Source: Halapricum salinum
GTDB lineage: Archaea; Halobacteriota; Halobacteria; Halobacteriales; Haloarculaceae
Reading direction: 5' to 3'
Length of the DNA: 64,000 bases
Assembly (NCBI RefSeq): GCF_004799665.1
Contig: NZ_CP031310.1
Coordinates: forward strand, 3,340,887 to 3,404,886
The notes beneath the pieces were generated by a model, which worked only from the letters and a program-made list of their open reading frames with translations, made no database searches and was not told where the DNA came from. Position 1 is the first letter of the stretch. Each line of letters starts with the position of its first letter. Below are positions 11,714-28,953 of this stretch, one piece after another. A program made the translations under genes and the position numbers.

Positions 11714-12977
11714 GTCGGACGTCCTGGTGATCGGCGGCGGTCTCGCCGGCCTGACGAGTGCTATCACCGCCGCGCGTGAGGGCGCACACGTTCGACTCGT
11801 CTCGTACAAACAGAGTACGCTTCGGCAGGCCTCGGGACTGGTCGATATTCTGGGGTACACACCCGAGGGAGAGGGGCCACTCACCGACCCCTACGAGGCC
11901 ATCCCCGAGCTCCCCGACGCGCATCCCTATCGGATCGTCGGGAGCGACACCGTTCGCGACTCGATGGCCCTCTTCGACGAAGTCGTTCCCGAGTACCAGG
12001 GTGGGCATACCGACACGAACGCGCTCCTGCCCACCCACGGCGGGACCGTCAAGCCCACGTCCAGATATCCCGCCGGCGCGGCCGCCGGGCTGGCGAGCGA
12101 CGACCGGGACGTCCTGCTGGTCGGTTTCGAGAGCATGACCGACTTCGACGCGCCACATGCCGCGGCCCACCTCCGGGCTGCGGGCGTTCCCTTCGACGTT
12201 CACGGCGTCACGGTCGAGTTCCCGGGTGATCTTAAAGCGGACGCGAAGGTGACGCGCTACGCCAAGCTTCTCGAACACAACGGGACAGTGTCGGTCCGCG
12301 GACGCGAGCAAGGCGCACGCGACGCACTGGCGGCCCGGGTCAATCGCGAGCGGACCGAGGAACCACGGGTCGGCTTTCCGGCCGTGCTGGGCGACGACGA
12401 CGCGGTCGGCGTCCACGCTGCTCTGAGCGAGAAACTCGACGCCGAAGTGTTCGAGGTCCCGAGTGGGCCGCCGTCGTTGCCGGGACTCAGACTCGAAGAC
12501 GCACTCTTCGACGCCCTCGACGAGGCCGGCGGCAACTTCGAGACCGGCAACCCGGTCGTCGAATTCGACGGCGACGATCGAATCGAGCGAGTCTACCTGG
12601 AGAAAAACGGCGCGAAAGTGCCCGTGCGCGCCGACCAGTACGTTCTCGCGACTGGCGGGCTGGTGGGCAAGGGCGTCGAGTCCGACCGTGAGGGCGTTCG
12701 CGAACCGGTGTTCGACTGTCACGTCCCACATCCCGAGGACCGGTACGCGTGGTTCGACCTCGATGTCTTCGGCGATCACCCGTTCGCGCTGTTCGGCGTC
12801 GATCCCGACCCCGAACTCCGACCCAAGGACGCCGAGGGCGACCCCGAGTTCGAGAACCTGCGCGCTGCGGGATCGGTCCTCGGTGGCTTCGACTTCGCCG
12901 CCGAGAAATCCGGAAGCGGCGTCTCGATAGCAACAGGATACCACGCTGGTGCGGCCGCGGCACAGGAGGCACGATGA
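11703..12977 (+). CDS. gpdB: Glycerol-3-phosphate dehydrogenase subunit B
   Basis: 424 residues from the ATG at 11703; an upstream extension to 11649 lies inside gpdA in another frame and is rejected. It is an FAD/NAD(P)-binding flavoprotein with the dinucleotide motif VIGGGLAGL near the N-terminus, like E. coli GlpB. A C-terminal '[12 protein letters not shown]' motif closes the FAD site. Together with GpdA and GpdC it forms the membrane-associated anaerobic-type enzyme. It is translationally coupled on both sides (overlap with gpdA; ATGA with gpdC). Confidence 0.95.
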
Positions 12978-14341
12978 GCGACGCAGAAGATCCACCGTTC
13001 GACCCAGTTGCACCGAACACCGGCGACTCCTACGAGCCGGTCGATGTCTTCCCCGACAGCGACGACTTCGACCTCCGGCCCGGGGCAGATTCGTGTTACA
13101 AGTGCTCGATCTGTGATACGAACTGTCCGGTTGCGGAGGTCGACGACGATTTCCCCGGTCCGAAGTTCCAGGGGCCCGAGCAGTGGCGGCTCAAACAGAC
13201 AGACGACGATTACGAGATCGACGACTCGATCACTGAGTGTTCGAACTGCATGCGGTGTGACGACGGCTGTCCGTCGGGCGTTCCGTTGAGTCAGATGCAC
13301 AACACGGCCCGTGGCCAGTACGTCGACGAACAGATGTCGAAGTTCTCGATAACGTACTGGCGCAACCGCATCCTCGCGAACTATCGGACGTCGGCTCGAC
13401 TGGCGAGCATCTTCCCACGGACGGCCAACTTCGTGATGAACTTCGGCCCTGTCCGGTGGGTGATGGACAAGACCATGGGGATCCCGAACGAGCGAGACTT
13501 TCCCGCCTTCGCCACCGAGACATTTCGCAAGTGGTGGCAGAAACAGGGCGGAGCCGACGCCTCGCGCCAGCGCGCTCGCGAGGCTCGCAAGCGCCGCGGG
13601 GAGCCGGAAGACGCCGACAAAAAGATCGCGTACTTCCACGGCTGTTACTCCAACTACAACACGCCGGAGGTCGCGAAAGCACTCGTCAGCGTCTACGAAC
13701 ACTTCGGCTACGAGGTGGTCGTCCCCGAACAGCGCTGCTCGGGAACGCCGATGTTCGCAAACGGCATGTTAGACGACGCCCGGCGCGGTGCCGAAGTCAA
13801 CGTCGCGTCGTTTGCAGACCTGGTCGAACAGGGCTACGACGCCATCGCCTCGTGTACGTCCTGTTCGATGGCACTGCGAAAGGAGTATCCCGAACTGTTC
13901 GACATCGAGGGCGTCGACACCGTCGCCGAACACACCTTCGAGTCGATCGAATACCTCCGCATCCACGAGGATCTGAAAGGAGAAATCGAACAGGCAGATG
14001 TCTCCGAGGACCTCGCTCGGGAGTTCGCCTATCACGCGCCCTGTCACGCTCGCAATCAGGGCCTCGAACGACAGGCCGTCGAACTGTTCCGCGATCTCGA
14101 TAACGTCGAAGTCGAGGACGTGGGCGAGTCCTGTTCGGGGATCTCGGGTACCTACGGCTGGAAGTCCGAGAAGTACGAGAAGTCCATGAAGATCGGCGAA
14201 GAGATGTTCGACCACATGGAAGACGCCGAGGGAACGACCGGGATGACCGAGTGCCCGACCTGTGCCATGCAGATGGAACACGGAACGGGCTACGAGATTC
14301 GACATCCGCTCGAACTGCTCGAAGCCGCGCTGGTAGAATAG
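12974..14341 (+). CDS. gpdC: Glycerol-3-phosphate dehydrogenase subunit C (Fe-S, CCG domain)
   Basis: 455 residues. Two [4Fe-4S] clusters are in the N-terminal part (CYKCSICDTNCPV and CSNCMRCDDGCPSG). Two CCG (heterodisulfide reductase D-like) domains follow: the first starts at HGCYSNYNTPEV, with CSGTP downstream; the second has HAPCHARNQG and ESCSGISGTYGWK. It links the flavoprotein subunits to the membrane quinone pool. The ATG at 12974 overlaps the gpdB stop as ATGA and is preceded by AGGAGG (about 12964-12969), an unusually good Shine-Dalgarno. Longer upstream frames lie within gpdB. Confidence 0.95.
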   Translation: MSDAEDPPFDPVAPNTGDSYEPVDVFPDSDDFDLRPGADSCYKCSICDTNCPVAEVDDDFPGPKFQGPEQWRLKQTDDDYEIDDSITECSNCMRCDDGCPSGVPLSQMHNTARGQYVDEQMSKFSITYWRNRILANYRTSARLASIFPRTANFVMNFGPVRWVMDKTMGIPNERDFPAFATETFRKWWQKQGGADASRQRAREARKRRGEPEDADKKIAYFHGCYSNYNTPEVAKALVSVYEHFGYEVVVPEQRCSGTPMFANGMLDDARRGAEVNVASFADLVEQGYDAIASCTSCSMALRKEYPELFDIEGVDTVAEHTFESIEYLRIHEDLKGEIEQADVSEDLAREFAYHAPCHARNQGLERQAVELFRDLDNVEVEDVGESCSGISGTYGWKSEKYEKSMKIGEEMFDHMEDAEGTTGMTECPTCAMQMEHGTGYEIRHPLELLEAALVE

Positions 14342-14886: not shown

Positions 14887-15175
14887 GATATGCTCCTACC
14901 AGTATTATTTACTCGCAAGTAGATAAATGATTCGATTGTTGCAATAGTGGGCGTGTGGAAATATGTACAATGGTACGGTGTTGTGCTCATTGGCACTCTG
15001 TGGTGGAGACGACCGTCGGATGGTCGGGTACATTCGCTATCGAGGTATCACGACGAATGTCGTCTGGGCTCACCGTAAATTGGCGGGGTAACTGTCACCC
15101 AGATATCGACGTGAGCAGGGCCTGGTTAATATGTGAAGCTTCGATTTGAAGGGGTAATCGTCCGAATCTGTGAGT

Positions 15176-16003
15176 ATGGCAGCGGAATCTGAGAACGACG
15201 TGCAATATACGACGAACGACGGGGTGCGGCTGGCATACGACCACGCCGGCGTCGGGAACGACGAGACGGTCCTCTTCGTGGAGGGACTGGGGTACAGTCG
15301 ATGGATGTGGCACTGGCAACGAGAGGCGGTGCTCGGAACGTACGAGGTCGTCGTCCCGGACAACCGCGGGACCGGCGACTCCGACGAACCCGAAGGTCCC
15401 TACACGATCACGGAGATGGCGGGCGACCTCGAAGCGGTCCTCGCAGACGCAGGCGTCGAGCGTGCACACGTCGTCGGCGCGAGCATGGGCGGGATGATCG
15501 CCATGCAGTATGCCCTCGAATACGACCGCGCCGAGTCGCTCTCGCTGTTTTGCACGAGCTTTGGAGGGGAAGAAGCCGTCCCGATTCCGGAGGAGACCAG
15601 AGTCAAGATGTTTACCGTGCCCGGGGAGTACGACGAGCGCCAGGCGATTCGCCACAAGATGGGGCCCGCGCTCTCGGAGGAGTATCCTGAGGCGCATCCC
15701 GAGCAGATCTCTCGCATCGTGGACTGGCGACTCGAGAGCGACGCGAGCGAGCAGGCTCGCCAGTGGCAGGCCGCCGCCGTCGAGGCCTTCGACGTCAGTG
15801 ATCGGTGTGACGAGATCGACCTCCCCGCGCTCGTCGTCCACGGAACGGACGACCGGGTCGTACCCTACGAGAACGGCGAGATGCTGGCCGAACGGCTCCC
15901 GAGATCTCGGCTGGTGCCGATCGAAGGCGGCCCGCACCTGTTCTTTATCGAGCAGACAGAGCTGGTGAACGACCGTCTCCTAGAGTTTCTCGAAGATGTC
16001 TGA
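15176..16003 (+). CDS. Alpha/beta hydrolase, copy 1 (next to acyl-CoA ligase)
   Basis: 275 residues from the ATG at 15176 (a GTG two codons earlier is possible). Alpha/beta-hydrolase fold: oxyanion-region EGLGYSRWMW, then DNRGTGDSD, nucleophile elbow GASMGG, acid in HGTDDRVVP, and a catalytic His in GGPHLFF. Candidate roles are hydrolysis of an ester, lactone or acyl-CoA. Its last 8 nt overlap the start of an acyl-CoA ligase (ATGTCTGA), so hydrolase and ligase are made together; release of an acid and its activation is a reasonable inference. A close paralogue is at 31254-32057, sharing a 39-residue identical stretch around the nucleophile. Confidence 0.88.
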   Translation: MAAESENDVQYTTNDGVRLAYDHAGVGNDETVLFVEGLGYSRWMWHWQREAVLGTYEVVVPDNRGTGDSDEPEGPYTITEMAGDLEAVLADAGVERAHVVGASMGGMIAMQYALEYDRAESLSLFCTSFGGEEAVPIPEETRVKMFTVPGEYDERQAIRHKMGPALSEEYPEAHPEQISRIVDWRLESDASEQARQWQAAAVEAFDVSDRCDEIDLPALVVHGTDDRVVPYENGEMLAERLPRSRLVPIEGGPHLFFIEQTELVNDRLLEFLEDV

Positions 16004-17630
16004 GCATCACCCGCGCAGCCCCCACCGTCCGGCCGACTGGGTCGGCGACTGGAGCGGTCGGCGCGCCCGACTGACGCCCGAGCGAATCGGTCTGATCGAC
16101 CGAACGACCGGCGAGCGATACACCTATGGTGAACTCGATCGGCGGGCGAACCGCGTCGCGCGACTGCTGTCCGAACAGGGCGTCACGGCCGGGGCCGAAT
16201 CCGCACGCGAGAACGTCGGCGGACGGGTCGCGGTCGTCTCGCGCAACCGACCTGAACTGGTCGACCTCTTCTTCGCGACCGGCAAGACCGGCGGCGTGCT
16301 GGTGCCGCTCTCGCACCGTCTCGCGCCGCCCGAACTCGGGACGCTCCTCGAAGACGTCGACCCGGCGCTGCTCGTCGTCGAGGAACCCTTCATCGAGACG
16401 GTCGAGGAGGCCCTGGCAGACGATTCGACGTTCGAGAGACTGGTACTACCGACCGAGGGTTCGCACGACGGGCGGGCCTTCGAAAACGCACTCCCGACGG
16501 ACGAAAGCCCGGTCGAGACGGCCACCCTGTCGATGGACGACGCGCATCTCTTCTTGCACACCGGCGGGTCGACGGGCGTCCCCAAGGAGACGGTCCTCAC
16601 ACACGGCGGGATCGTCTGGAACTCGCTGAACACGATCACGGGCTGGGGGATCCGCGAAGACGACGTCACTCCGATGGTATTTCCGATGTTCCACACAGGC
16701 GGATGGAACGTGATCACCATCCCGATCTGGCACATGGGTGGGACCGTGGCCATCGCCCGGGCATTCGACCCCGGAGCGGTCCTCGCGACGGTCGATGATC
16801 TCGGTGGGACTGTCCTCGTCGCCGTTCCAGCGGTGCTGCGGATGATGACCGAGCACGACCGCTGGGAGGACGCCGACCTGTCGTCGCTCCGGGTCGTCAA
16901 GTCCGGCGGCGGTCCCTGCCGAGAATCGGTCATGGATACCTGGTGGGACCGCGGGATCGAGCTCTCACAGGGATACGGACTGACGGAGTGCGGGCCGAAC
17001 AACTTCGCGATGCCCGAGGGCTGGCCCCGCGAGAAGGCCGACAGCGTCGGCGTGCCGGATATGCACGTCGAAACGCGGGTCGTCGACGACGGCGAGCCGG
17101 TCGAGCGCGGTAAGATCGGCGAACTCCAAATCGCCAGTCCGCACGCGGCGGACCGCTACTGGAACGACGAGAGCGAAACCGTGGCAGCGTTTGGAGAAGG
17201 AACGGTCGAACCGGCCAACGAACCCGGGGCCGACCGGGGTTGGGTTTCGACGGGCGACCTCGCGCGCGTGGACGAAGACGGCTACCACTACATCGAGGGG
17301 CGGAAGAAGCACATGTTCGTCAGCGGCGGTGAGAACGTCTATCCCGCCGAAGTCGAAGACGCGATCGCGGATCATCCCGCCGTCGCAGAGGTCGTCGTGA
17401 TCCCGATTCCCGACGGGCAGTGGGGCCAGGTCGGCAAGGCCGTCGTCGAACTGGCCGGCGGGACCAGCGAATCGGACCTCGACATCGAGTCGCTACGCGC
17501 CTTTCTCGACGGCCGACTCGCCCGATTCAAGCACCCCAGAGCCGTTTCATTCGTGGAGACGATGCCGACCAGTGGACCCTCCAAGATCGACCGTGAGGCC
17601 GTCGCCGAACGTTTTGGCGAACTGGAGTGA
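15996..17630 (+). CDS. AMP-forming acyl-CoA synthetase/ligase
   Basis: 544 residues, full length for the ANL superfamily. It activates a carboxylic acid to acyl-AMP and then acyl-CoA. Motifs: P-loop GGSTGVPKETVLTHGG, SQGYGLTECGPN (A5), STGDLARVDEDGYHYIEGRK (A7/A8), FVSGGENVYPAEVE, and the C-terminal catalytic Lys in 'PTSGPSKIDRE'. The substrate cannot be read from sequence; it resembles medium-chain/aromatic acyl-CoA ligases. It is coupled to the upstream hydrolase and followed by a regulator and an organic-acid/amino-acid ABC transporter, which suggests catabolism of an imported acid. Confidence 0.93.
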   Translation: MSEHHPRSPHRPADWVGDWSGRRARLTPERIGLIDRTTGERYTYGELDRRANRVARLLSEQGVTAGAESARENVGGRVAVVSRNRPELVDLFFATGKTGGVLVPLSHRLAPPELGTLLEDVDPALLVVEEPFIETVEEALADDSTFERLVLPTEGSHDGRAFENALPTDESPVETATLSMDDAHLFLHTGGSTGVPKETVLTHGGIVWNSLNTITGWGIREDDVTPMVFPMFHTGGWNVITIPIWHMGGTVAIARAFDPGAVLATVDDLGGTVLVAVPAVLRMMTEHDRWEDADLSSLRVVKSGGGPCRESVMDTWWDRGIELSQGYGLTECGPNNFAMPEGWPREKADSVGVPDMHVETRVVDDGEPVERGKIGELQIASPHAADRYWNDESETVAAFGEGTVEPANEPGADRGWVSTGDLARVDEDGYHYIEGRKKHMFVSGGENVYPAEVEDAIADHPAVAEVVVIPIPDGQWGQVGKAVVELAGGTSESDLDIESLRAFLDGRLARFKHPRAVSFVETMPTSGPSKIDREAVAERFGELE

Positions 17631-17779
17631 CGCCGTTCAGAGTTTTTCTCACGAAGGAAAGAAATCGGATTCTGCAGTGTTCACAATCGGCAATATTCAC
17701 CGTCACAGGCAGGATCGAACCAGACACGTACTCAACACTTAACACCATGTAGAATGATGAACTATCAGGGTATCGGCTC

Positions 17780-18481
17780 ATGATCGACATCGCCATGGAC
17801 ATGGAGCAGTACGACTGTCCGTTCATCGACACCACGGCAGACCACGGTGTCGCGTTCGCTACCGTCCACTGGGACTTCGATCAATCTCGGCGGGAACTAG
17901 AGACGCGGCTGGTCGTCGAAGGGGACGACCGTGGGGAACTCGACGCGGGGTTGGATGCGTTGCGAGCGCACGACAACATGAACGACTACTCGCTGATCAC
18001 GCGCCAGAAGAATGTGGCACACATCCGCACGCGGATCGTCGAGACGGACGCGATGGCCGCGATCCGCGACAACGACGGCTACATCACCGGCCCCTTCCAC
18101 ATCGAGGACGGGAGCGAGATCTGGCACGTCGGGTTCGACCGCAGCGACGAGGCCGACGTGGCCCTCTCGGAACTGGACCGCAACAACGAGTTCGACATCG
18201 TCGAACGGAAGAATTCGGCACTGCCCGATCTGCAGGACTTCGTGCAGAACGCGGGTGCCGCGATGACGCTGATCGAGGGCTGTCGAGACCTCTCTGACGT
18301 CGAACGCGAGACGCTCGAGACCGCCGTCCAGAGCGGGTACTTCGAGACACCGCGGGACGCCTCGCTCGGCGCGCTCGCCGACGAGTTCGGCGTCTCGAAA
18401 CCCGCCGTGTCGAAGAACCTCCGCCGGAGTCAGCAGAAGATGATCGAACGAGTCGTCGAAGCGCTCGACAATCTGGAGTGA
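17780..18481 (+). CDS. Bat-type HTH_10 transcriptional regulator
   Basis: 233 residues. The N-terminal about 160 residues are a haloarchaeal bacterio-opsin-activator-like sensor region; the C-terminal HTH_10 domain (about 180-230) contains 'LGALADEFGVSKPAVSKNLR' and ends with the typical RRSQQKMIERVVEAL. It sits between the ligase and the ABC transporter, in the same direction, and is the obvious candidate regulator for the cluster. An inverted repeat (18531-18550) lies between it and the transporter. Either activation or repression is possible. Confidence 0.85.
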   Translation: MIDIAMDMEQYDCPFIDTTADHGVAFATVHWDFDQSRRELETRLVVEGDDRGELDAGLDALRAHDNMNDYSLITRQKNVAHIRTRIVETDAMAAIRDNDGYITGPFHIEDGSEIWHVGFDRSDEADVALSELDRNNEFDIVERKNSALPDLQDFVQNAGAAMTLIEGCRDLSDVERETLETAVQSGYFETPRDASLGALADEFGVSKPAVSKNLRRSQQKMIERVVEALDNLE

Positions 18482-18530
18482 ACCCGTCCGCTACTCGTGG
18501 TCAGGGCCGCGAAAATCGACGTCACTGTCG

Positions 18531-18550
18531 CGGGTTCACATGTAAACCCG
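18531..18550. promoter_or_regulatory. Inverted repeat upstream of the LivK-type transporter operon
   Basis: CGGGTTCACATGTAAACCCG: a 20-bp palindrome with one mismatched base pair (two of 20 positions), centred about 47 nt upstream of the substrate-binding protein start. It is a likely operator for the adjacent HTH_10 regulator or another dimeric factor (inference). Confidence 0.5.
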
Positions 18551-18587
18551 ACTTGCCTTGTCTTTCGTTAACATTGGTTAGTACGTC

Positions 18588-20003
18588 ATGGCAGACAACA
18601 ACGTAACACGGCGGCGAGCGCTGCAGGCGCTCGGTGTCGCGGGGTTCGCCGGCCTGGCCGGCTGTGGTGAAGAGACGGGACCGGGAGGAGACGACGATGG
18701 CAATGGAAACGGAGAGACAGATCCGATGACTACCGAAGGAACACGAACGCCGCAGGACGTCTCGGGAACGATCAAGATCGGTGTCCTCCAGCCGCTGACC
18801 GGGGACCTGCGATACTACGGTCAGCAGAGCGTCTGGGGGTTCCTGTCGGGACTTGCCTACAAAGGCGATTCCGAACCGCCGGGCGACATCAGCGCCGGGA
18901 CGATCACGATGGACGTCGGTGACGTCACGTACGAACTACTCCTTCGGGACACGGAGTTCACGGCAGATATCGCCCAGACGCGAGCGACTGACCTGGTCCA
19001 GTCCGAGAACGTCGACATGCTGTTCGGCTGTTCGTCCTCGGGGGCGGCGACGCGGGTCATCGATACCGTCGTCAGTGCCACGAACGTCCCGTACATGGCC
19101 GGTCCTGCGGCCTCGGCAGACATCACGTCCAACAACGAGACGTGTCGCGATATCGTCTTCCGCGCGAGCGAGAATACGGCGATGGACGCCCGGAGTGGCG
19201 GCCAGTACGTCGCCGAGGAGACAGACGTCGAGAACGTCTACCTGTTCGGTGCCGACTACAGCTTCGGGCGTGCCGTCGTCAACAACTACGAACAGGTGCT
19301 GGCGGCCAACGGCGTCAACGTCATCGACACGCGGTTCGTCGAGCGGGGTTACTCAGACTGGGGGCCCCTGCTCGACAACGCCGAGGAGGCCGGCGCGGAC
19401 GGCATCGTCGGCGGGTTCACCGTCGCCACGCTCCCGCAACTGTTCACGGCGTTCCTGACCGGGGACTACAGTTTCCGGGCGTTCGGTGGGTTCGCGACCC
19501 TGATCACGAACACCGTCGTCGGTGAGACGATGCAGAACGCCCTCGGAGAAGACCTGACGGCCCAGGACATCCGCGACGCGAAGCTCGGGCCGTTCACGAC
19601 GCGGTATCACTGGAACCAGTACGACAACCCGATCAACGATGCGTTCGTCGACACGTACACCAGCACGTACGGGATGGTTCCCGACCTCTTTACCTCGGGG
19701 ACGTTCACCGCGGCGTCGGCGATCCATCAGGCCGCCCGGTACGGCGGCTCGCTCGAAGGTGCCGATATCGCGAGCGAACTCCGCGGGATGACCGTCAGAG
19801 ACACGCCGAAGGGGGAGAACGGCTACACCTTCCAGACGTACAACAACCAGATCCGCTCGGAGATGACGGTCGCCGATCCGATTCCGACGACCGACGAATG
19901 GGCCGACGCCTGGAGCGCAACGATCATGCCCGGCGAACCCCGCGTCCGGATCAGTGGCGAGGACGCGACCATCCCCGAAAGCGACGTCTCCTGCTCGCTG
20001 TAA
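18588..20003 (+). CDS. LivK-type ABC transporter substrate-binding lipoprotein
   Basis: 471 residues. A Tat signal (RRRALQALG, residues 8-16) with lipobox LAGC (Cys26) precedes an acidic Gly/Glu/Asn linker and a type I periplasmic-binding (branched-chain amino acid/amide/urea) domain beginning 'IKIGVLQPLTGDLRYYGQQS'. The later 'VYLFGADYSFGRAVVNNYEQ' is typical of LivK/AmiC proteins. Anchored outside the membrane, it delivers substrate to the LivHM permease. It is the first gene of a co-linear operon with livG, livF, livH, livM and a thiolase. The ligand may be a branched or aromatic acid rather than an amino acid, given the acyl-CoA ligase context (inference). Confidence 0.92.
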   Translation: MADNNVTRRRALQALGVAGFAGLAGCGEETGPGGDDDGNGNGETDPMTTEGTRTPQDVSGTIKIGVLQPLTGDLRYYGQQSVWGFLSGLAYKGDSEPPGDISAGTITMDVGDVTYELLLRDTEFTADIAQTRATDLVQSENVDMLFGCSSSGAATRVIDTVVSATNVPYMAGPAASADITSNNETCRDIVFRASENTAMDARSGGQYVAEETDVENVYLFGADYSFGRAVVNNYEQVLAANGVNVIDTRFVERGYSDWGPLLDNAEEAGADGIVGGFTVATLPQLFTAFLTGDYSFRAFGGFATLITNTVVGETMQNALGEDLTAQDIRDAKLGPFTTRYHWNQYDNPINDAFVDTYTSTYGMVPDLFTSGTFTAASAIHQAARYGGSLEGADIASELRGMTVRDTPKGENGYTFQTYNNQIRSEMTVADPIPTTDEWADAWSATIMPGEPRVRISGEDATIPESDVSCSL

Positions 20004-20006
20004 GCT

Positions 20007-20780
20007 ATGCTGCAGACGAGCGGACTCACGAGACGATTCGGCGGACTCGTCGCCGTCGACGACGTCGACTTCTCACTCGGCGACGAGCTGTGCTCGCTCA
20101 TCGGTCCCAACGGTGCCGGGAAGACGACGTTCTTCAATCTCCTCACCGGGGCCCTGGAGCCGAGCGACGGCACGATCGAATTCCGCCGAGACGACGAGTG
20201 GCTGGACATCACGAACGCCTCGCCACACGAAACGGCTTCGCTGGGCATTCACCGATCGTACCAGCTCACGAATATCTTCCCGACCAGCAGCGTCTTCGAG
20301 AACGTCAGAGTCGCCGCCCAGGCGGCCGACAGCGGCCGGCGGAGCTTCTGGCGCAACGTCAATCACTTCGAGCGATATCGCGAAGAGGCCTACGACATCC
20401 TCGAGCGCGTCGGCCTCGCCGAGCACGCAGAGACGCCAGCGAACGCACTCAGTCACGGTGCCAAACGCCAGCTCGAAGTGGCGATCGCTCTCGCCGGCGA
20501 TCCCGACGTTCTCTTGCTCGACGAACCGAACGCCGGGGTCTCCTCGGAGAGCGTCGGCGACATCATCGACCTCATCGAGGACGTCGCCGGCGACCACGCC
20601 GTGCTGCTGGTCGAGCACAACATGGACGTGGTGATGCAGGTCTCGGACCGCATCGTCGTTCTCAACCAGGGCGCGGTCATCGCTGACGACGAGCCCGAAT
20701 CGGTACGCAACGACCCCGCAGTGCAAGAGGCCTACCTCGGTGGGTACACACCCGGGGATCTCGCGGAGGGGAGTACATGA
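20007..20780 (+). CDS. livG: ABC transporter ATP-binding protein, LivG-type
   Basis: 257 residues. Walker A GPNGAGKT at residues 33-40, signature ALSHGAKRQLEVA, Walker B VLLLDEPNAG and H-loop LVEHNMD. As in LivG proteins the signature is LSHG rather than LSGG, and the C-terminus is extended (EAYLGGYTPGD). It powers uptake with LivF. It starts 3 nt after the binding-protein gene and overlaps livF by 4 nt (ATGA). Confidence 0.93.
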   Translation: MLQTSGLTRRFGGLVAVDDVDFSLGDELCSLIGPNGAGKTTFFNLLTGALEPSDGTIEFRRDDEWLDITNASPHETASLGIHRSYQLTNIFPTSSVFENVRVAAQAADSGRRSFWRNVNHFERYREEAYDILERVGLAEHAETPANALSHGAKRQLEVAIALAGDPDVLLLDEPNAGVSSESVGDIIDLIEDVAGDHAVLLVEHNMDVVMQVSDRIVVLNQGAVIADDEPESVRNDPAVQEAYLGGYTPGDLAEGST

Positions 20781-21475
20781 CGTTGCTCTCTCTCACAGAC
20801 GTCCACACGTACTACGGCGAGAGCCACATCCTCGAGGGCGTCTCTCTCGAGATCGAGGCGGGCGAAGTCGTCGCCCTCGTGGGGCGCAACGGCGTCGGGA
20901 AGACGACGACCATCCGGACGATTCTCCAGCTGACGCCGCCACGCGAGGGGACCGTTCGGTTCAAGGACGAAGAAATCGCGGGCGAAGAGACTCACGAGGT
21001 CGCCCGTCGCGGTATCGGCTGGATTCCCGAGGACCGGCGGATATTCACCCAGTTGAACGTCGAGGAGAACCTCCGAGTCGCGGTCCCCGACCGTGACGCG
21101 CTCCGGCCGGCACTGGAGATGGCATACGACGCCTTCCCGATCCTCGAAGAGCGTCGCGATCAGCGAGCCGGGACGCTCTCGGGCGGTCAACAGCAGATGC
21201 TCTCGCTCGCGCGCGGGCTCGTCGGTGAGAACGAACTGCTACTGGTCGACGAACCGAGCGAGGGACTCGCGCCACAGGTCGTCGCGACGGTAGCGGAGTC
21301 GCTCGCCGAGGCGGCCACCGACACGTCGATGCTCGTCGTCGAGCAGAACCTGCCGCTGGCGCTCGACCTCGCGGATCGGTTCTACGTGCTCGACAACGGT
21401 TTGATCGTCGACGAGGGATCGACCGACGAAGTCTCGGCCGACAGCGAACGCCTCAGGAGGTATCTCTCTGCATGA
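20777..21475 (+). CDS. livF: ABC transporter ATP-binding protein, LivF-type
   Basis: 232 residues, the usual LivF size. Walker A GRNGVGKTT, signature LSGGQQQMLSLARGL, Walker B LLLVDEPSEGLAP and H-loop VVEQNLPLALDLADR. Its start overlaps livG and its stop overlaps livH, both as ATGA, so the four transporter subunits are stoichiometrically coupled. Confidence 0.94.
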   Translation: MTLLSLTDVHTYYGESHILEGVSLEIEAGEVVALVGRNGVGKTTTIRTILQLTPPREGTVRFKDEEIAGEETHEVARRGIGWIPEDRRIFTQLNVEENLRVAVPDRDALRPALEMAYDAFPILEERRDQRAGTLSGGQQQMLSLARGLVGENELLLVDEPSEGLAPQVVATVAESLAEAATDTSMLVVEQNLPLALDLADRFYVLDNGLIVDEGSTDEVSADSERLRRYLSA

Positions 21476-22503
21476 TCGACGCCACGCTCTTCACCGCGGA
21501 AGTGGTCCCACTGTCGATCGTCGACGCGTTCGTCGAGTTCCTCCACCCCTCGGAACTGGTCGGCGTCCTCGTCGACGGGCTCTCGAAAGCAGCCATCTAC
21601 GCCATGATCGCTGGCGGGTTGACGCTGATCTTCGGACTGATGGGCGTGCTCAACTTCGCGCACGGCTCACTGACGATGGTCGGCGCATACCTCGGCGGGG
21701 CGATCATGGTCCTGTCGGTGAGTTCCGCCACCGGACCGATGACCAGGCTCGCGTTCTTCTTCGTCGGCATCGTCGTGGTATTCGGCGCGCTTTCGGCAGT
21801 CGGGGGCGCGCTCGAGATATCGCTCATCCGACGCCTTTACGATCGTCCCCCCATCGCACAGATCCTGCTGACGTTCGGCCTCACGCTGATCATCGACGAG
21901 TTGATGCGGATCGTTCTCGAGTTCTACGACCTCCAGCCGCGAGCCGACTGGATCGCCGCCTGGGGAACCAAGCCGTGGTTCCTCTCACAGCGGCTGTCGA
22001 TCGGCCCCGTCGACGTCAGAGGGCTCGCGCTGTTCGAGATTCTGATGGGCGTCCTGACGGTCGGCGCGATCTGGGCCTTCCTCACGCGGACGCGCTACGG
22101 GCTGTTCATCAGGGCCGGCAGCGAGGACAGCGAGATGGCGTCCGCACTGGGAATCGACGTCCGACGGGTGTTCACGGTCGTCTTCGCGATGGGGACCGGC
22201 GTCGCCGGCGTCGCCGGGATGCTCCTGATGTGGGACACCCTCTGGGGTGCCAGCGTCCCGCTCGGCGCTGAGACGCTGTTGCCGGCGTTCGTCGTCGTCA
22301 TCATCGGCGGCCTCGGAACGTTCCGCGGGACGGTCGTCGCGGCGTTGCTGGTCGGGATGGTCGACGCCGTGATGACGTGGTGGTTCGTAAACGAGATCAG
22401 GTTCACCGGGTTACCCGAACTGACGATCTTCCTGATCCTGGTGATCGTCCTGATCGTCCGCCCGCAGGGACTGTACGGCGTCGAGGGGGTGGGCGGCCAT
22501 TAG
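21472..22503 (+). CDS. livH: ABC transporter permease, LivH-type
   Basis: 343 residues with about eight hydrophobic helices. The family motif 'GLTLIFGLMGVLNFAHGSL' occurs near residue 50, and a cytoplasmic coupling region 'RAGSEDSEMASALGIDVRRV' near 220. It forms the inner-membrane channel with LivM. The stop codon is TAG within ATTAG, directly touching the possible start of livM. Confidence 0.93.
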   Translation: MIDATLFTAEVVPLSIVDAFVEFLHPSELVGVLVDGLSKAAIYAMIAGGLTLIFGLMGVLNFAHGSLTMVGAYLGGAIMVLSVSSATGPMTRLAFFFVGIVVVFGALSAVGGALEISLIRRLYDRPPIAQILLTFGLTLIIDELMRIVLEFYDLQPRADWIAAWGTKPWFLSQRLSIGPVDVRGLALFEILMGVLTVGAIWAFLTRTRYGLFIRAGSEDSEMASALGIDVRRVFTVVFAMGTGVAGVAGMLLMWDTLWGASVPLGAETLLPAFVVVIIGGLGTFRGTVVAALLVGMVDAVMTWWFVNEIRFTGLPELTIFLILVIVLIVRPQGLYGVEGVGGH

Positions 22504-22597
22504 CGACGATGCCCCGCCCGAAGACGCCCCCGAGGCGTCCGGGTCCGACGAAACCGCGGCCAACACCGGCGGTACTGATCCCGTCCCTGACGGAGCC

Positions 22598-23899
22598 GTG
22601 GCGACTGCAGACGACGAGCACACGCGTGCGGAACAAGGGACGGGCTGGCGCTCGTCCTGGCCCGCCCGGTACGCCCGGGATCACGCCATTCACCTCGCGG
22701 TCGTCCTGCTGTTCGCCTGCTATCCCGGTATCTATCACGTCGCCACCACCTCGCAGTTCGGACTGGTCTTCGAGTCGTTCTTGCCGCAGGTTCAGACGAT
22801 GACGCCGATCCTGTACTTCGGCCTGTTCGCGATGTCGTTCGACTTCATCTCGGGGTACACCGGGTACCTCTCGTTCGGCCACGCGGTCTTCTACGGCACC
22901 GGCGCCTACCTCGTGATCGTCATCGCCAACGGGAAGATCCCGCTGCTGGCCGCGGGGACGCCGTTCATGATTTCGGTCGTACTGGCGGCGGTGCTGGCGG
23001 CGCTCATCGCGGTCGCGATCGGCCTCGTCTCCTTCCGACTGACGGGCGTCTACTTCGCGATGATCACCCTCGGCTTCGCACAGGTGTTCTACGTCTTCAT
23101 CCGCGGTTGGGACTGGGTCGCGACAGCGCCGCGAGACGGGCCGTCCGTCTCCTTCGGGACCCACCCCGAAGGATTCAGGATCGGGATCCCCTACGTCGAC
23201 GGCGCCAGCTACGCGATCGGGCGGCTGTACGGCTCCGGGCTGGAGGGCTTTCTCGGTCTGTTCGATCTCTCTACCACTGTCGTCTCCTTCTACATGATCG
23301 GGCTGGTCGTACTCGTCTGCTATCTCGCGATGCAGCGGATCATCCACTCCCCGTTCGGCAGGGTGATGATCGCCATCCGCGAGAACGAAGAGCGCGCCCG
23401 TGCGATCGGGTACAACACCTTCTACTACAAGCTGGGCGCCTTCGCGATCAGTGGCGCGTTCGCCGGCGTGGCCGGGGCCCTGTTCGCGGGCTACAGGCGA
23501 TCTGTCACGCCCGAGAACACCTTCTACTTCCTGACGACAGGGGACGCGCTCCTGTCGAGCATCATCGGCGGGCTCGGCACGCTGGCCGGGCCGCTGTACG
23601 GCCGGTTGTTCGAACAGGGCCTCGACGAATTCCTCTCGAAGGGGAGCGAGGGCGGCGGCCTGCTCCCGATGTTACAGGAGTACCTCAGCCGGTCGATTCT
23701 CGAGACGAACGCGCTCGGCCTGACCATCGAGGAGATGATCGACGCGTTCATCAACGGCCGTGCCAGCCTCTACGTCGGCATCGTCTTCGTGCTGTTCGTG
23801 CTGTTCGTCCCCAACGGGCTGCTGGGATCGCTCCGCGAGCGGGTCGGCGGTCCGATCGCCAAACTCCCCGGACGGCTCTTCGGCGGTGAAAAGCCGTGA
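22598..23899 (+). CDS. livM: ABC transporter permease, LivM-type
   Basis: 433 residues from the GTG at 22598. It has about ten hydrophobic helices, with the LivM motif 'YFGLFAMSFDFISGYTGYLS' and the loop 'RENEERARAIGYNTFYYKL'. The frame upstream is open back to livH and reads as an acidic, haloarchaeal-looking N-terminus (about 33 residues from 22502). The protein could therefore really start at a non-canonical ATT (22499-22501) overlapping the livH stop; GTG 22598 is the first standard start codon. The stop overlaps the next gene's GTG start. Confidence 0.88.
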   Translation: MATADDEHTRAEQGTGWRSSWPARYARDHAIHLAVVLLFACYPGIYHVATTSQFGLVFESFLPQVQTMTPILYFGLFAMSFDFISGYTGYLSFGHAVFYGTGAYLVIVIANGKIPLLAAGTPFMISVVLAAVLAALIAVAIGLVSFRLTGVYFAMITLGFAQVFYVFIRGWDWVATAPRDGPSVSFGTHPEGFRIGIPYVDGASYAIGRLYGSGLEGFLGLFDLSTTVVSFYMIGLVVLVCYLAMQRIIHSPFGRVMIAIRENEERARAIGYNTFYYKLGAFAISGAFAGVAGALFAGYRRSVTPENTFYFLTTGDALLSSIIGGLGTLAGPLYGRLFEQGLDEFLSKGSEGGGLLPMLQEYLSRSILETNALGLTIEEMIDAFINGRASLYVGIVFVLFVLFVPNGLLGSLRERVGGPIAKLPGRLFGGEKP

Positions 23900-24915
23900 G
23901 TGTCGGGGTGACTGGCCTGGGAACGTATCTTCCCGAACCGACGCTGTCGGCCGAGGAGATCGCAGCCCGGAGTGACGTCCCCCAAGAGGTGGTGCGCGAG
24001 AAGATGGGCGTCGAACGTAAACACGTCTGTCCGCCGGACGGCGAACACGTCACGGACATGTGTGTCGAGGCCGCGGCGGCGGCTCTCGAGGAGTCGTCCC
24101 TGTCGGCTCACCAGCTCGATTACGTGCTGTACCACGGCAGCGAGTACAAGGACTACGTCGTCTGGCCGGCAGCCGCCGCTATCGCCGAGCGGATCGGCGC
24201 ACAGACCGCCTTCGCCACCGAGAGTTACACGCTCTGTGCCGGCGCACCCATCGCGATTCGAACCGCGGCGGCGATGCTGACAGCAGATTCGCCCCGGAGC
24301 GCACTCCTCGTGAGTGCCAGTCGCGAAGAGGACCTGGTCGACTACACCGACCCGGACGCCTCGTTCATGTACAACTTCGGCAGCGGGGCCAGCGCGATGG
24401 TGCTCGAATCCGACCCCGACGACCGCCTGGCCACAGTCAGGTCGAGCGCCGCCCACACCGACGGGAGTTTCGCAGACGACGTCGTCATGCCAGCCGGCGG
24501 AAGCCACAACCCGCCCAGCGAGGAGACAGTCGCCGCGGAGGAGCACACGCTGACGGTTCCGAACTACGAGTCGATGAAAGAACGACTCGCGGAGGTGACG
24601 CTGGCGAACTTCACCGACGTCGCGGATACGGCCCTGTCGCGGTCTGGATTCGAACGAACTGACGTCGATCTGCTGGCGCTGACGCACATGAAACGGTCGT
24701 TCCACGAGACCCTCGTGGACGTCTTCGACCTCGGACCAGACGAACACGTCTACCTCGAAGAGACCGGGCACGTCCAGTCCGTCGATCAGGCGCTGGCGAT
24801 CGAGCGAGCACGGGAATACGGCTGGCTCGGAGACGGCGACGTCGTGCTCTGTCTGGCCGCCGGGACGGGCTACACCTGGTCAGCGACGGTCATGGAGTGG
24901 GAGACCCAGGTCTGA
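23896..24915 (+). CDS. KAS III/HMG-CoA synthase-like thiolase-fold enzyme
   Basis: 339 residues, thiolase superfamily. The nucleophilic Cys is C114 (ESYTLCAGAP) and a His lies in ALTHMKR (H264). The usual third residue of KAS III, Asn in a GN[TS] motif, is replaced: residues 291-292 read Gly-His in ETGHVQSVDQAL. The C-terminal GTGYTWSA is typical. Such enzymes acylate themselves with an acyl-CoA and condense or transfer the acyl group. It starts at a GTG overlapping the livM stop (GTGA), so it is part of the transporter operon. Archaea lack bacterial fatty acid synthesis, so a role in modifying the imported, CoA-activated substrate is more likely (inference). Confidence 0.85.
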   Translation: MSVGVTGLGTYLPEPTLSAEEIAARSDVPQEVVREKMGVERKHVCPPDGEHVTDMCVEAAAAALEESSLSAHQLDYVLYHGSEYKDYVVWPAAAAIAERIGAQTAFATESYTLCAGAPIAIRTAAAMLTADSPRSALLVSASREEDLVDYTDPDASFMYNFGSGASAMVLESDPDDRLATVRSSAAHTDGSFADDVVMPAGGSHNPPSEETVAAEEHTLTVPNYESMKERLAEVTLANFTDVADTALSRSGFERTDVDLLALTHMKRSFHETLVDVFDLGPDEHVYLEETGHVQSVDQALAIERAREYGWLGDGDVVLCLAAGTGYTWSATVMEWETQV

Positions 24916-24992: not shown

Positions 24993-27692
24993 CTATCCGG
25001 TGTTTTTCATCCCGGCGGCGATGCCGTGGACGGTCAGCCGAAGCGTCCGTTTTTCGGTCTCGGTGAGGTGGCTCTGGGCGAGCAACCGGGTCTGCAGGAG
25101 GTTCAGCGGGTCGACGTACGGGTTACGCCGCTCCATGTTCTCTTCGAGCCACGCCCGCTTGACCAGACTATCACGGCCGGTGATCTCCTGGACGATATCG
25201 ACTGCGTCCTGGTACTCCTCGCGGATGCGCGAGAAGATTCGTTCCTGCAAGTCCTCGTCGGCGAGGGCAGCGTACTCCTCGGCAATCTCCATCTCCGTTC
25301 GCGCGAGCGCCAGCGCGGCGTGGTCGAGCATGGTGTTGAAGAACGGCCAGTTCTCGTACATCTCCCGCAGCGTCTCGATGTCGCCGCCGTCGTCGAGGTA
25401 GGCCTGCAGTCCCGTCCCCAGCGAGTACCACCCTGGGACGATACAGCGCGACTGCGTCCAGGAGAACACCCACGGGATCGACCGCAGGTCCTCGACGTTG
25501 CGCTCCTCACTTCGGGAGGCCGGCCGAGAGCCGAGGTTGAGGTTCTCGATGACGGTGATCGGCGTCGCCTGCTCGAAGTATGTGACGAAGCCGTCAGTGT
25601 CGAGGAGGCCGCGGTACTCCTCGCGGGCGGCTTCGGCCGAGGACTCGAAGGCGTCCATCCACTCCTCGGGCACTTCCTCGACAGGCTCCTGTAGCGCGTT
25701 GTGGCGCGCTTTCACCTGCGCGTTGAGCATCTGTTCGAGGTTGCGCTCGGCGATGTTCTCGTTGGCGTACTTCTCGGCGATGGCTTCGCCCTGCTCGGTG
25801 AACTTGATCTGGCCCGTGCAGGTCTCGTTGGGCAGCGCCAGCATCGCCTCGTGCATCGGGACGCCGCCGCGGGAGATCGACCCACCGCGGCCGTGGAACA
25901 GGCGCATCTCGACGTCGAAGTCGTCACAGATCGCCGCCAGCCGTTTCTGGTTGCGGTACAGCGACCAGTTCGCCGCGAGGAAGCCGTTCTCCTTGTTCGA
26001 ATCGGAGTAGCCCAGCAGGATCTCCTGGGTGTTGTTCCGGGCCTCCAGCGCCTGGGCGTAGGCCTCGTTCTCGAACAGCGTCCCCATGATCCGGCGCGCA
26101 CCGGAGAGGGCGTATTCGGTCTCCAGCAGGGGAACGATGTCGAACCCACAGTAGTTCGGGAGGTCGACGATGCCGGCCTGGTCGCCGAGGAACAGCACCT
26201 CCAGTGCGTGACTCGGCTCTTCGAACCAGCTGATCGCGTAGGTGTCGATCGCGTCGACGCCGTACTCTTTCTGCCACTCGGCGGTCTGCTCGAAGCGGGT
26301 CAGCACGCGGGCGGCGTCGTCGCCGAGGCCATCAGTGTGCTCGATGTCCAGCACTGGCTCGTCCTGGAGGATGGCCTCAGTCAGGAACTCCTGGCGTTCC
26401 TGTTCGTCCATCCCCTCGTAGTCGATCCCCTCCTGGGCGTCGAGCGCCTGGCTGAGGGCGTTGGTGTGCATCTCTCGGTGGTCACGCAGGTCCATGCTGA
26501 CCAGCGTGAATCCGAACGTGTCGACCTTCCGGCGAAGCGGGCGGACGTACGCCTCGGAGATGTCCTCGCCGCCGTGTTTGTGGAGGCTCTCCTCGATGAC
26601 CCGCAGATCCTCCATGAACTCCTCCTCGTCGCTGTAGCCGCCCTCGCGGACGTCCGAGACCCGGAGGATCGACTCGCGCATCAGCTTGAGTTTCTGCCGG
26701 TAGGGTTCGTCGGGATAGCGCTCTTTGGCCTCGGCGGCGACGCCGGGCAGGCGCTGTTTGTGCGGCTCGAAGCGCTCCTCGAACTCCCCGGTGACCGACA
26801 CCTGTGAGGCGTCCTGGGTCAGCACGCCCGAGAGTTCCTTGAGCTTGTCTCGGTAGAGCTGGAGGACGGTTTCGCGCTGACGATCCAGCGTCTCGGCCGT
26901 GACTTCGGGGGTCACGAAGGGGTTACCGTCCCGGTCGGAGCCGGCCCACGACCGGAACTCGTAGAGTTTGGGGACGTCGACGTCGGACTCGTAGGCGTCG
27001 TCGAGCGCCGATTCGAACTCGTCGTAGATCCTGTCGATGATCTCGAAGAGGACGTTCTCGAGATACCACTGGACGTTCAGCGCTTCGTCGGTGACCTCCG
27101 GGCGGCGCTCGCGTACCTGCGGCGTCTGCCAGAGGCTCGTGACCTGCGCGCGAACCTCGCGTTTGATCCGGTCCTCCTCGCGGTCGGTCAGTCGAACCTC
27201 GTCGAGTTCTTCGAGGTCGCCCGCGATGTCTCGCAGCTTGGCCTTGACCGTCTTCCGGCGGGCTTCGGTCGGGTGTGCGGTAAAGGTCGGCTGGATCAAC
27301 ACGTCTTTGAGGATGTCTTCGAGCGCGTCGGGCGAGACGTCGTTGTTCTTGAAATACTGAGCGGCCTCGCGGACGCTGTCGTCGAGCGTCTGCTCCTGGG
27401 TCCCCTCGCGGATCTCCCGGACACGTTGGCGCTCTTCGGCTAGATTGATAAGTTCGAAGTAGGTAGTAAAAGCCCGAGCGACGACGTCCTGTTTCTCCGG
27501 CGAGAGACGGTCCAGTGTGTCGTGGATGGGGTCGCGGGAGTCGGCTTCCCCGCGGCGGTAGTTGATCGCTGCGTTGCGGATCGTCTCCACCAGATCGAAC
27601 GCCTCGTCCGAACTCTGGTGTTTGATCACGCGGCCCAGCAACTCACCCAGCTCACGCACGTCCTGATTTATTTCTCTGGCGTGTAGACTCAT
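24993..27692 (-). CDS. ppc: Phosphoenolpyruvate carboxylase
   Basis: 899 residues from the ATG at 27692; the longer frame to 27863 adds an unrelated-looking N-terminus and would cover the promoter. It carboxylates PEP to oxaloacetate (anaplerosis). All bacterial-type PEPC motifs are present: AHPTEARRKT near residue 140, GYSDSNKENGF near 560, FHGRGGSISRGG near 605, the active-site GSRPASR, and the C-terminal MKNTG. GTTTTAC (27722-27728, minus strand), about 34 nt before the ATG, is a plausible TATA box. It is divergent from the por operon and convergent with the thiolase gene. Confidence 0.96.
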   Translation of the reverse strand: MSLHAREINQDVRELGELLGRVIKHQSSDEAFDLVETIRNAAINYRRGEADSRDPIHDTLDRLSPEKQDVVARAFTTYFELINLAEERQRVREIREGTQEQTLDDSVREAAQYFKNNDVSPDALEDILKDVLIQPTFTAHPTEARRKTVKAKLRDIAGDLEELDEVRLTDREEDRIKREVRAQVTSLWQTPQVRERRPEVTDEALNVQWYLENVLFEIIDRIYDEFESALDDAYESDVDVPKLYEFRSWAGSDRDGNPFVTPEVTAETLDRQRETVLQLYRDKLKELSGVLTQDASQVSVTGEFEERFEPHKQRLPGVAAEAKERYPDEPYRQKLKLMRESILRVSDVREGGYSDEEEFMEDLRVIEESLHKHGGEDISEAYVRPLRRKVDTFGFTLVSMDLRDHREMHTNALSQALDAQEGIDYEGMDEQERQEFLTEAILQDEPVLDIEHTDGLGDDAARVLTRFEQTAEWQKEYGVDAIDTYAISWFEEPSHALEVLFLGDQAGIVDLPNYCGFDIVPLLETEYALSGARRIMGTLFENEAYAQALEARNNTQEILLGYSDSNKENGFLAANWSLYRNQKRLAAICDDFDVEMRLFHGRGGSISRGGVPMHEAMLALPNETCTGQIKFTEQGEAIAEKYANENIAERNLEQMLNAQVKARHNALQEPVEEVPEEWMDAFESSAEAAREEYRGLLDTDGFVTYFEQATPITVIENLNLGSRPASRSEERNVEDLRSIPWVFSWTQSRCIVPGWYSLGTGLQAYLDDGGDIETLREMYENWPFFNTMLDHAALALARTEMEIAEEYAALADEDLQERIFSRIREEYQDAVDIVQEITGRDSLVKRAWLEENMERRNPYVDPLNLLQTRLLAQSHLTETEKRTLRLTVHGIAAGMKNTG

Positions 27693-28122
27693 GCCACTGC
27701 GTCTCAGTCCCACTGCCGAGTGTAAAACACTAGCGGAACAGGGTGGCCGTAACCGGGAGAACGTTTGTGATAGATACGCTGTCAATCCCCTTATATAAGG
27801 GGGATCTGGTGCAGACGAAACCTGTGTTGAGAGTCCAATGTGAGACCCGGAAACGCGCGACACCTGAGACTGACTATCGATACGGCGAGATCCCTAATCA
27901 ATTATCGAAAACGTTTCAACTATCTTAAACACCCTCTATTTGAGGGCTATAACGGTGTGGTAGTGGGACGAGTAGAGTCGAGTAGGGTACTTCCGGCTGG
28001 CAGTGACAGGCGCAGATCAGCGATGTCGATTCCAGCCGGAGAACGTCAGTGAGGATAGGGCCTGTACAGCGTGCGAGACGCTGACTGGTCGTTTCTCACT
28101 CCCAGCGGAGGAGGATTTCACA
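27693..28122. other. 430-nt divergent intergenic region between ppc and porG
   Basis: No gene is supported here. The region is clearly AT-richer than its surroundings. It holds a perfect 16-bp palindrome around a TATA box (27787-27802), a GTGTAAAACAC element (27720-27730) close to ppc, a promoter-like TATCTTAAAC (27921-27930) and a small hairpin CCCTC-TATTT-GAGGG (27932-27946). If por transcription starts near 27950, its mRNA has an unusually long leader of about 170 nt for a haloarchaeon. A good Shine-Dalgarno (GGAGGAGG, 28106-28113) precedes porG, consistent with a leadered transcript. Confidence 0.6.
27787..27802. promoter_or_regulatory. Perfect palindrome centred on a TATA box
   Basis: CCCCTTATATAAGGGG is its own reverse complement. 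The TATA box TTATATAA is its centre, so the element could recruit TBP in either direction, or an operator could occlude it. It lies between divergent ppc (start 27692) and por genes (start 28123). Confidence 0.6.
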
Positions 28123-28662
28123 ATGTACGCAATCAGGATTCACGGTCGCGGTGGGCAGGGCACCGTGACACTAGCACAGTTGCTGGCACAGGCAGGACAC
28201 GAAGAGGGGATCTGGACGCAGGCGACGCCATCGTTTGGCGTCGAACGACGGGGGGCACCGGTCGAGGCGTACGTGCGATACAGTGACGAGAAGATCACCG
28301 AGCGAAGCCACGTCGAACAGCCGGATTGTGTCATCGTTCAGGACACGAGCCTGCTGGAGTACGTGGACGTGACCGAGGGGCTCGAAGACGACGGCATCCT
28401 GCTCGTCAACACGGACGCCGATCCGGCAGCCGTCGACGTCGACACTGACGCCGACGTCATCACCGTCGACGCGACCGAAATCGCGCTGGAGAACCTCGGG
28501 CGGCCGATCATGAACACGGCGCTGCTCGGGGCCTTCGCGGGCGCGACTGACAAACTGAGCACCGGGAGCCTCGAGTCGGTCATCACCCGCAAGTTCGCAG
28601 GCGAGGTCGGTCGGAAGAACGTCGCGGCCACCACCGACGCGTACACGGAGGTACACGCATGA
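28123..28662 (+). CDS. porG: 2-oxoacid:ferredoxin oxidoreductase gamma subunit
   Basis: 179 residues from the ATG at 28123, preceded by a strong Shine-Dalgarno; upstream in-frame residues are Cys/Arg-rich and not protein-like for this host. It carries the gamma-subunit motif RIHGRGGQGTVTLAQLLA at the N-terminus and 'GVERRGAPVEAYVR' after it. It forms part of the four-subunit pyruvate/2-oxoisovalerate-type oxidoreductase with the next three genes. ATGA overlap with porD. Confidence 0.92.
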   Translation: MYAIRIHGRGGQGTVTLAQLLAQAGHEEGIWTQATPSFGVERRGAPVEAYVRYSDEKITERSHVEQPDCVIVQDTSLLEYVDVTEGLEDDGILLVNTDADPAAVDVDTDADVITVDATEIALENLGRPIMNTALLGAFAGATDKLSTGSLESVITRKFAGEVGRKNVAATTDAYTEVHA

Positions 28663-28952
28663 GCGACACGCAAGACCCATACGAGAACCTGAAGATCACG
28701 ACAGGCGTCGTCGCGGAACCGAACACGTCCCGTACGAACGAGACCGGCTCCTGGCGGGAGTACAAACCGGTCGTCGATCCGGACACCTGTATCGGCTGTG
28801 GCCAGTGTGAGACGTACTGTCCCGATCAGGCGGCCAAGCCGGTCGAGGGCGAGGACTTCTACGCCTTCGATCTGGACTACTGCAAGGGCTGTGGCATCTG
28901 TGCCGACGTGTGCCCGACCGACGCTATCGAGATGGTACGGGAGGTGAAATAA
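28659..28952 (+). CDS. porD: 2-oxoacid:ferredoxin oxidoreductase delta subunit (2x[4Fe-4S])
   Basis: 97 residues. Two ferredoxin-type cluster motifs, CIGCGQCETYCPD and CKGCGICADVCPTDA, pass electrons from the TPP site to external ferredoxin. A short N-terminal region (about 45 residues) precedes them, as in stand-alone delta subunits. Translationally coupled to porG and one nucleotide away from porA. Confidence 0.95.
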   Translation: MSDTQDPYENLKITTGVVAEPNTSRTNETGSWREYKPVVDPDTCIGCGQCETYCPDQAAKPVEGEDFYAFDLDYCKGCGICADVCPTDAIEMVREVK

Positions 28953-28953
28953 C

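Follow-up and report, generated by a model that had tools for sequence, protein, structure and literature searches.

A conserved haloarchaeal gene neighbourhood joining a Liv-type importer and acyl-CoA enzymes to a KAS III-like protein of family PRK06840

Introduction

Why does a complete Liv-type importer lie in one run of genes with a hydrolase, an acyl-coenzyme A (CoA) ligase and an enzyme of the thiolase fold, and what might that enzyme do there? The question is raised by a 64,000-nucleotide stretch of Halapricum salinum DNA (contig NZ_CP031310.1, positions 3,340,887 to 3,404,886), which we call the window and which comes from a haloarchaeal contig of 3.45 Mb. A reading made from the sequence only had proposed an undescribed system for the import, CoA activation and condensation of an organic acid. 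Our analysis gives good support to a conserved module for organic-acid uptake and CoA-dependent catabolism. The known kind to which it belongs is the operon that combines an importer with CoA catabolism, and what sets it apart is the unusual KAS III-like enzyme within it.

Results

A nine-gene cluster on one strand

Positions 15170-24915 of the window hold nine open genes, all on the plus strand, and each was assigned to a family by Pfam and NCBIfam profile searches:

15170..16003, plus strand: alpha/beta hydrolase of the Ser-Asp-His type, esterase/lactonase-like (PF00561, 7e-27)
15996..17630, plus strand: AMP-forming acyl-CoA ligase (PF00501, 7e-71; PF13193)
17780..18481, plus strand: HTH_10 transcription regulator with an HVO_2525_N domain (PF04967, PF24279)
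18588..20003, plus strand: livK, substrate-binding lipoprotein (PF13458)
20007..20780, plus strand: livG, ATP-binding cassette (ABC) ATPase (PF00005 and PF12399)
20777..21475, plus strand: livF, ABC ATPase (PF00005)
21472..22503, plus strand: livH, permease (PF02653, 7e-38)
22598..23899, plus strand: livM, permease (PF02653, 7e-37)
23896..24915, plus strand: KAS III-like enzyme of family PRK06840 (NF005308, 405.3 bits), with Cys114, His264 and His292

The one-direction gene set described in the sequence-only reading was borne out by the open reading frames and both profile searches, and the overlap it had noted between livM and the GTG start of the KAS-like gene was read directly, as GTGA. Overlaps of the same 4 nt join livG to livF and livF to livH (ATGA in both cases), and the ATG of the ligase gene falls within the end of the hydrolase gene, which starts with GTG at 15170 or alternatively with ATG at 15176. 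The importer set of the HAAT (Liv) type is complete and in order (PF13458, two PF02653 and two PF00005 proteins). The top NCBIfam models for LivF were UrtE/LivF, with scores under their cut-offs, and LivK begins with a signal that by eye resembles a twin-arginine translocation lipobox (TRRR followed by LAGC). The KAS gene was the only one of its kind detected in the genome.

The neighbourhood is conserved across phyla

The sequence-only reading was to be refuted if no relative kept the neighbourhood or if the thiolase-fold gene had another consistent set of partners, and this refutation failed. A protein-guided search of named genomes yielded 39 loci, and the KAS family was present in 44 of 194 haloarchaeal genomes. 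An orthologous livK lay within 10 kb of the KAS gene in 43 of these 44, and LivK-KAS co-occurrence over the 194 genomes gave a Fisher p of 7e-28, uncorrected for relatedness. Dereplication left 46 haloarchaeal loci, of which 42 had three or more Liv genes near the KAS gene, 37 the regulator, 36 the ligase and 27 the hydrolase; these counts are lower bounds, since contig ends cut several loci. Of 43 loci with livM and the KAS gene on the same strand, 37 had an estimated gap of -40 to +200 nt between the two, and the 4-nt overlap recurred in 14, including that of Herpetosiphon aurantiacus. Four loci of Natrialbaceae type (L096, L097, L011 and L044) have an additional acyl-CoA ligase gene between livM and the KAS gene, with a product that is more distant (38-41% identity).

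The core of the set extends beyond haloarchaea. At 13 Chloroflexota loci, the ligase was near the KAS gene in 11, the hydrolase in 10 and at least three Liv genes in 6. Only 3 of 200 Thermoproteota genomes passed the family search, and all three loci contained hydrolase, ligase and KAS genes with a major facilitator superfamily (MFS) carrier in place of the Liv transporter. Vulcanisaeta (L047) carries this set too, in reading frames that look broken. In addition, one bacterial control genome outside these phyla, that of Thermus composti, is positive for the family. The import of an organic acid and its activation with CoA follow from the gene families, and the exchange of carriers shows that the function of transport, rather than one particular transporter, goes with the enzymes. 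The neighbourhood is thus conserved across haloarchaea, and its core in Chloroflexota and Thermoproteota as well, and is not a chance arrangement.

The transporter and the KAS-like enzyme are not obligately coupled, as the sequence-only reading had supposed. A LivK orthologue occurs without a KAS gene in 21 haloarchaeal genomes. One genome of Haloarcula type (L116) retains regulator, livKGFHM and ligase in that order and lacks the KAS gene; the hydrolase search places a hydrolase there as well. Retention of the Liv, hydrolase and ligase genes without KAS in Haloarcula relatives implies that KAS is not essential to the module. Another locus (L121) combines ligase, regulator, thiolase and Liv genes and has no KAS gene. 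KAS genes standing without Liv genes were found at L019/L113, L023, L030 and L037. The link therefore runs one way, with KAS nearly always accompanied by the transporter and the transporter able to do without KAS. In Halovenus (L019, L030 and L113), the Liv-less KAS gene has other partners, which are themselves repeated: a hydrolase and a class-I glutamine amidotransferase.

Some flanking genes also recur. Downstream of the window cluster, on the minus strand, is a PEP-carboxylase-like gene (24993-27863), and such a gene also adjoins the KAS-less regulator-Liv-ligase cluster in L116 (G154:C8) and in other genomes of its genus (g3). Upstream lies a probable glpABC set (9968-14341), and the glpABC-ppc-ligase association appears again in L117 and L119, there without Liv or KAS genes.

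The KAS III-like enzyme has an altered active site

The KAS-like protein scored 405.3 bits over residues 2-337 against NF005308/PRK06840, for which the curated cut-off is 315, and is a member of that family. The same holds for the Chloroflexota proteins and for two from Thermoproteota. The family is named "3-oxoacyl-ACP synthase" (ACP, acyl carrier protein), yet the genes that consistently accompany it encode CoA enzymes and a transporter, and its active-site motifs differ from those of KAS III. In the open-access literature that we searched, there was no mention of PRK06840 and no description of the cluster, which is weak evidence of absence. The system can thus be called undescribed with respect to that literature, whereas for its KAS family a curated model exists already.

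In its fold the protein resembles KAS III (FabH) and BioZ over the whole chain. The structure model (predicted local distance difference test score, pLDDT, 93.7) matched KAS III and BioZ structures with Z of about 40 and root mean square deviations of 2-2.5, and Foldseek matched it to FabH structures with E of 1e-26 or lower and TM-scores of 0.8-0.9. The highest Z scores were to BioZ, which condenses glutaryl-CoA, and to FabH, level with others.

The likeness to KAS III extends to the nucleophile and stops there. Cys114, His264 and His292 are each retained in 72 of 73 KAS-like sequences. In alignments with FabH, Cys114 falls on the nucleophile and His292 on the Asn, a position that is occupied by His in 72 of the 73. 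His264 falls one residue past the FabH His in ungapped alignments; because it is the sole invariant His of the loop, sequence conservation marks it as the probable catalytic His and the presumed counterpart of that in FabH. The HQAN stretch of KAS III reads THMK in the window protein, and across the PRK06840 proteins the HQAN and GNT motifs of KAS III (FabH) are represented by xHMK[RP]S and GH, so that the canonical His-Asn pair (HQAN, GN) is missing. By contrast, the Chloroflexota genomes in question also encode true FabH-like paralogues, and these retain HQAN and GN; they form a separate, supported group in the tree, with long branches as a caveat. A Pfam search gave no thiolase match. With a KAS III fold and altered motifs, the protein is KAS III-like in fold while failing the motif tests for both KAS III and thiolase. 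Thiolases and KAS I/II carry His where canonical KAS III has Asn. One family member (L092:9905-10912), whose neighbours include hydrolase, ligase and ABC genes, has Ser at the position of the nucleophilic Cys, which may represent either an acyltransferase variant or a one-residue alignment slip (SCG).

Partner genes and the accessory genes of relatives

The catalytic residues of the hydrolase are well kept in 51 homologues (Ser105 in 48, Asp228 and His256 in all 51). Its top NCBIfam model was PcaD, at 131.6 bits, well under the TIGR02427 cut-off of 255.85. A second alpha/beta hydrolase with 67% identity to it lies at 31188-32057 (plus strand), directly 3' of what appear to be the genes of a four-subunit 2-oxoacid:ferredoxin oxidoreductase (28003-31145; named by reading rather than by family search). 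The core motifs of the ligase are invariant across 59 homologues. The regulator had been called Bat-type, and this holds for its HTH_10 domain; its N-terminal part is PF24279 (HVO_2525_N), and the Pfam search found neither of the PAS and GAF domains that, with HTH_10, define a Bat protein.

Relatives of the cluster carry further genes. A recurrent MaoC protein has the (R)-hydratase motif GDxNPxH. A short-chain dehydrogenase/reductase (SDR) recurs in some Chloroflexota and haloarchaea, and its ten top solved matches were all 3-hydroxybutyrate dehydrogenases, with which it shares the QH, SxHG, KxxY and PLVxxQ positions. The substrate site of 3-hydroxybutyrate dehydrogenase is lined by Gln, Ser-x-His, Lys, Tyr and Gln; these residues are present in the SDRs of L084a, L086, L088, L091 and the haloarchaeal L045 type and absent from those of L083, L084b and L057. 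Against the TIGR01963 cut-off of 307.05 bits, the L084 protein scored 348.8 and the haloarchaeal L045 protein 194.1. Acyl-CoA dehydrogenases and an ECH-type CoA hydratase are other recurrent neighbours, as is an acetoacetyl-CoA-thiolase-like gene accompanied by a DUF35 partner.

An SDR orthologue of the H. salinum genome (55% identity) lies at C1:2142477-2143286 (L127, L129), beside a patatin-domain gene, and has the site residues of 3-hydroxybutyrate dehydrogenase. The arrangement is that of phaZh1-bdhA, and the two are probably such a pair. In Haloferax mediterranei phaZh1-bdhA, BdhA converts 3-hydroxybutyrate to acetoacetate (PMC11205408), and PhaJ connects (R)-3-hydroxyacyl-CoA with beta-oxidation (PMC4823750). 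The MaoC, SDR, dehydrogenase and thiolase neighbours, together with the patatin-SDR pair, point to the breakdown of 3-hydroxy or 3-oxo acids.

A proposed catabolic route

The most likely substrate class would be a short 3-hydroxy or 3-oxo acid. LivKGFHM would import such an acid or a small ester of it, the hydrolase would cleave an ester, lactone or thioester bond, the AMP-forming ligase would form the acyl-CoA, and the PRK06840 enzyme would then work on the acyl-CoA through its cysteine. Since the accessory acyl-CoA dehydrogenase, (R)-hydratase, SDR and thiolase read as a breakdown route, the KAS-like step may be cleavage or acyl transfer, and the condensation originally proposed is not supported as it stood. 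We suggest a thiolase-like retro-Claisen reaction in which a 3-oxoacyl-CoA would give a shorter acyl-CoA and acetyl-CoA, although the direction of this step is deduced rather than observed. The HTH_10 protein is presumably the local regulator, and any SDR step used in H. salinum could be served by the unlinked orthologue at C1:2142477.

Linkage in haloarchaea (43 of 44), Chloroflexota and Thermoproteota, the presence of a thiolase where KAS is missing (L121), and His at the KAS III Asn position, as in thiolases, all speak for this route. Several observations weigh against it. The second catalytic Cys of thiolases is absent, with the C-terminal motif AAGTGYTW containing no Cys, and PRK06840 occurs alongside a normal thiolase in L009 and L115, which implies that the KAS-like enzyme is not simply a thiolase replacement. 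The SDR was found in 10 and MaoC in 15 of the 46 haloarchaeal loci, and both are missing from the window cluster. Among solved proteins, the ligase and LivK are nearest to enzymes and binders of aromatic acids, not of C4 acids, and the top NCBIfam model of the Thermoproteota MFS carrier was TIGR00895 (aromatic acid/H+ symport; 189 bits, cut-off 418). PHA (polyhydroxyalkanoate) synthase occurs less often in genomes with the KAS gene (14 of 44) than in those without it (88 of 150; uncorrected for relatedness), and no link to the cell's own PHA was seen; the H. salinum genome itself encodes a class III PHA synthase (C1:1050965).

Considering both sides, we offer the full route, from import of a short 3-hydroxy or 3-oxo acid or ester to a retro-Claisen step by the KAS-like enzyme, as a tentative proposal that falls somewhat short of an even chance. 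A bolder idea is that the PRK06840 proteins form a branch of their own within the KAS III fold, performing CoA-dependent retro-Claisen chemistry with Cys-His-His and taking the place of thiolase in an importer-tied catabolic route of archaea and bacteria; for now this is rather doubtful.

Alternative explanations

The imported acid could instead be aromatic, of phenylpropanoid type, with its side chain shortened inside the cell: after entry by Liv or an aromatic-acid/H+ symporter, the ligase would form an arylpropenoyl-CoA, and a hydratase, a dehydrogenase and the KAS-like enzyme would yield acetyl-CoA and aroyl-CoA. The nearest solved protein to the ligase is a feruloyl-CoA synthetase/fatty acyl-CoA synthase (8wev/8weu), 4-hydroxybenzoate and vanillate binders are among the solved matches of LivK (model pLDDT 87.3; nearest RPA4397, 3n0x, Z 44), and the Thermoproteota carrier, though under the cut-off, is nearest TIGR00895. 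However, the two top matches of LivK come without a named ligand, with amino-acid binders not far behind in score, the SDR resembles enzymes for free 3-hydroxy acids, and gentisate dioxygenase-like genes are not enriched (3 of 44 KAS-positive genomes versus 27 of 150) and are lacking in the H. salinum genome. We regard this explanation as unlikely, and gentisate-linked aromatic catabolism, which shows no enrichment with the cluster, was rejected.

Slightly less likely again is that the KAS-like enzyme joins an acyl-CoA with acetyl- or malonyl-CoA, with the SDR and MaoC proteins working reductively in a CoA-based chain extension. The KAS III fold, with top Z scores to BioZ and FabH tied with others, is consistent with condensation, and the His at the Asn position could still serve a decarboxylative form of it, as in KAS I/II. 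Fatty-acid synthesis in archaea is moreover thought to proceed without ACP (PMC3533463). Linkage to importers and acyl-CoA dehydrogenases nevertheless indicates breakdown, and no malonyl-CoA or ACP gene was present among the annotated neighbours examined. As to biotin synthesis in particular, BioZ ties as the top fold match; the neighbourhoods, which were not searched systematically for bio genes, showed none, and we did not retain this candidate.

The altered active-site motifs and the presence of PqsD and PqsBC among the fold matches would also suit acyl transfer without C-C chemistry, in which a CoA acyl group passes to an O, N or S acceptor, as in KAS III relatives of the CerJ or PqsD/PqsC type with altered active sites; the hydrolase would then cleave an ester or thioester. 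The neighbourhoods contain no recurrent gene for making an acceptor, and we consider this improbable. An ordinary branched-chain amino-acid importer beside unrelated acyl-CoA genes by chance is very improbable: amino acids are common cargo of Liv transporters, and Liv, hydrolase and ligase genes do persist without KAS in Haloarcula-type genomes, but the linkage is maintained across phyla and the MFS swap leaves hydrolase, ligase and KAS in place.

Discussion

Returning to the breakdown of a short 3-hydroxy or 3-oxo acid, we find parallels to several known systems. The order of lactonase-type hydrolase, CoA activation, thiolase-fold cleavage and carrier recalls the lower beta-ketoadipate branch (PcaD, CoA transfer, PcaF thiolase and PcaK/T carriers), from which the cluster differs in having a ligase for the CoA transferase and a KAS III-like protein for the thiolase; the PcaD-PcaF branch as such was rejected, with the hydrolase far under the PcaD cut-off. 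The SDR and MaoC proteins of relatives resemble BdhA and PhaJ of H. mediterranei, and H. salinum has a patatin-SDR pair elsewhere in its genome. That route mobilises the cell's own PHA, whereas the genes described here lie beside an importer, and PHA synthase does not preferentially co-occur with them. Mobilisation of the cell's own PHA was rejected because PHA synthase is rarer among KAS-positive genomes. The transporter is like the HAAT (Liv) aromatic-acid transporters of Rhodopseudomonas palustris in its LivK fold (RPA4397 closest) and five-gene make-up, at a sequence identity of 17-23%. Olefin synthesis by OleABCD shares the thiolase-fold, hydrolase, ligase and SDR folds; the nucleophile of an OleB-type hydrolase is Asp, and the Ser nucleophile of the cluster hydrolase (GASMGG, 48 of 51), together with the transporter in the set, led us to reject it.

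These results supply the PRK06840 family with a consistent partner set in at least three phyla and suggest a few substrates that could be tried on it. Because fatty-acid synthesis in haloarchaea is thought to proceed without ACP, haloarchaeal genes annotated "3-oxoacyl-ACP synthase" are probably misnamed. If the enzyme cleaves rather than condenses, it would represent new chemistry for the KAS III fold; if it does not cleave, the cluster would still give a name to an organic-acid uptake route that is common in salt lakes.

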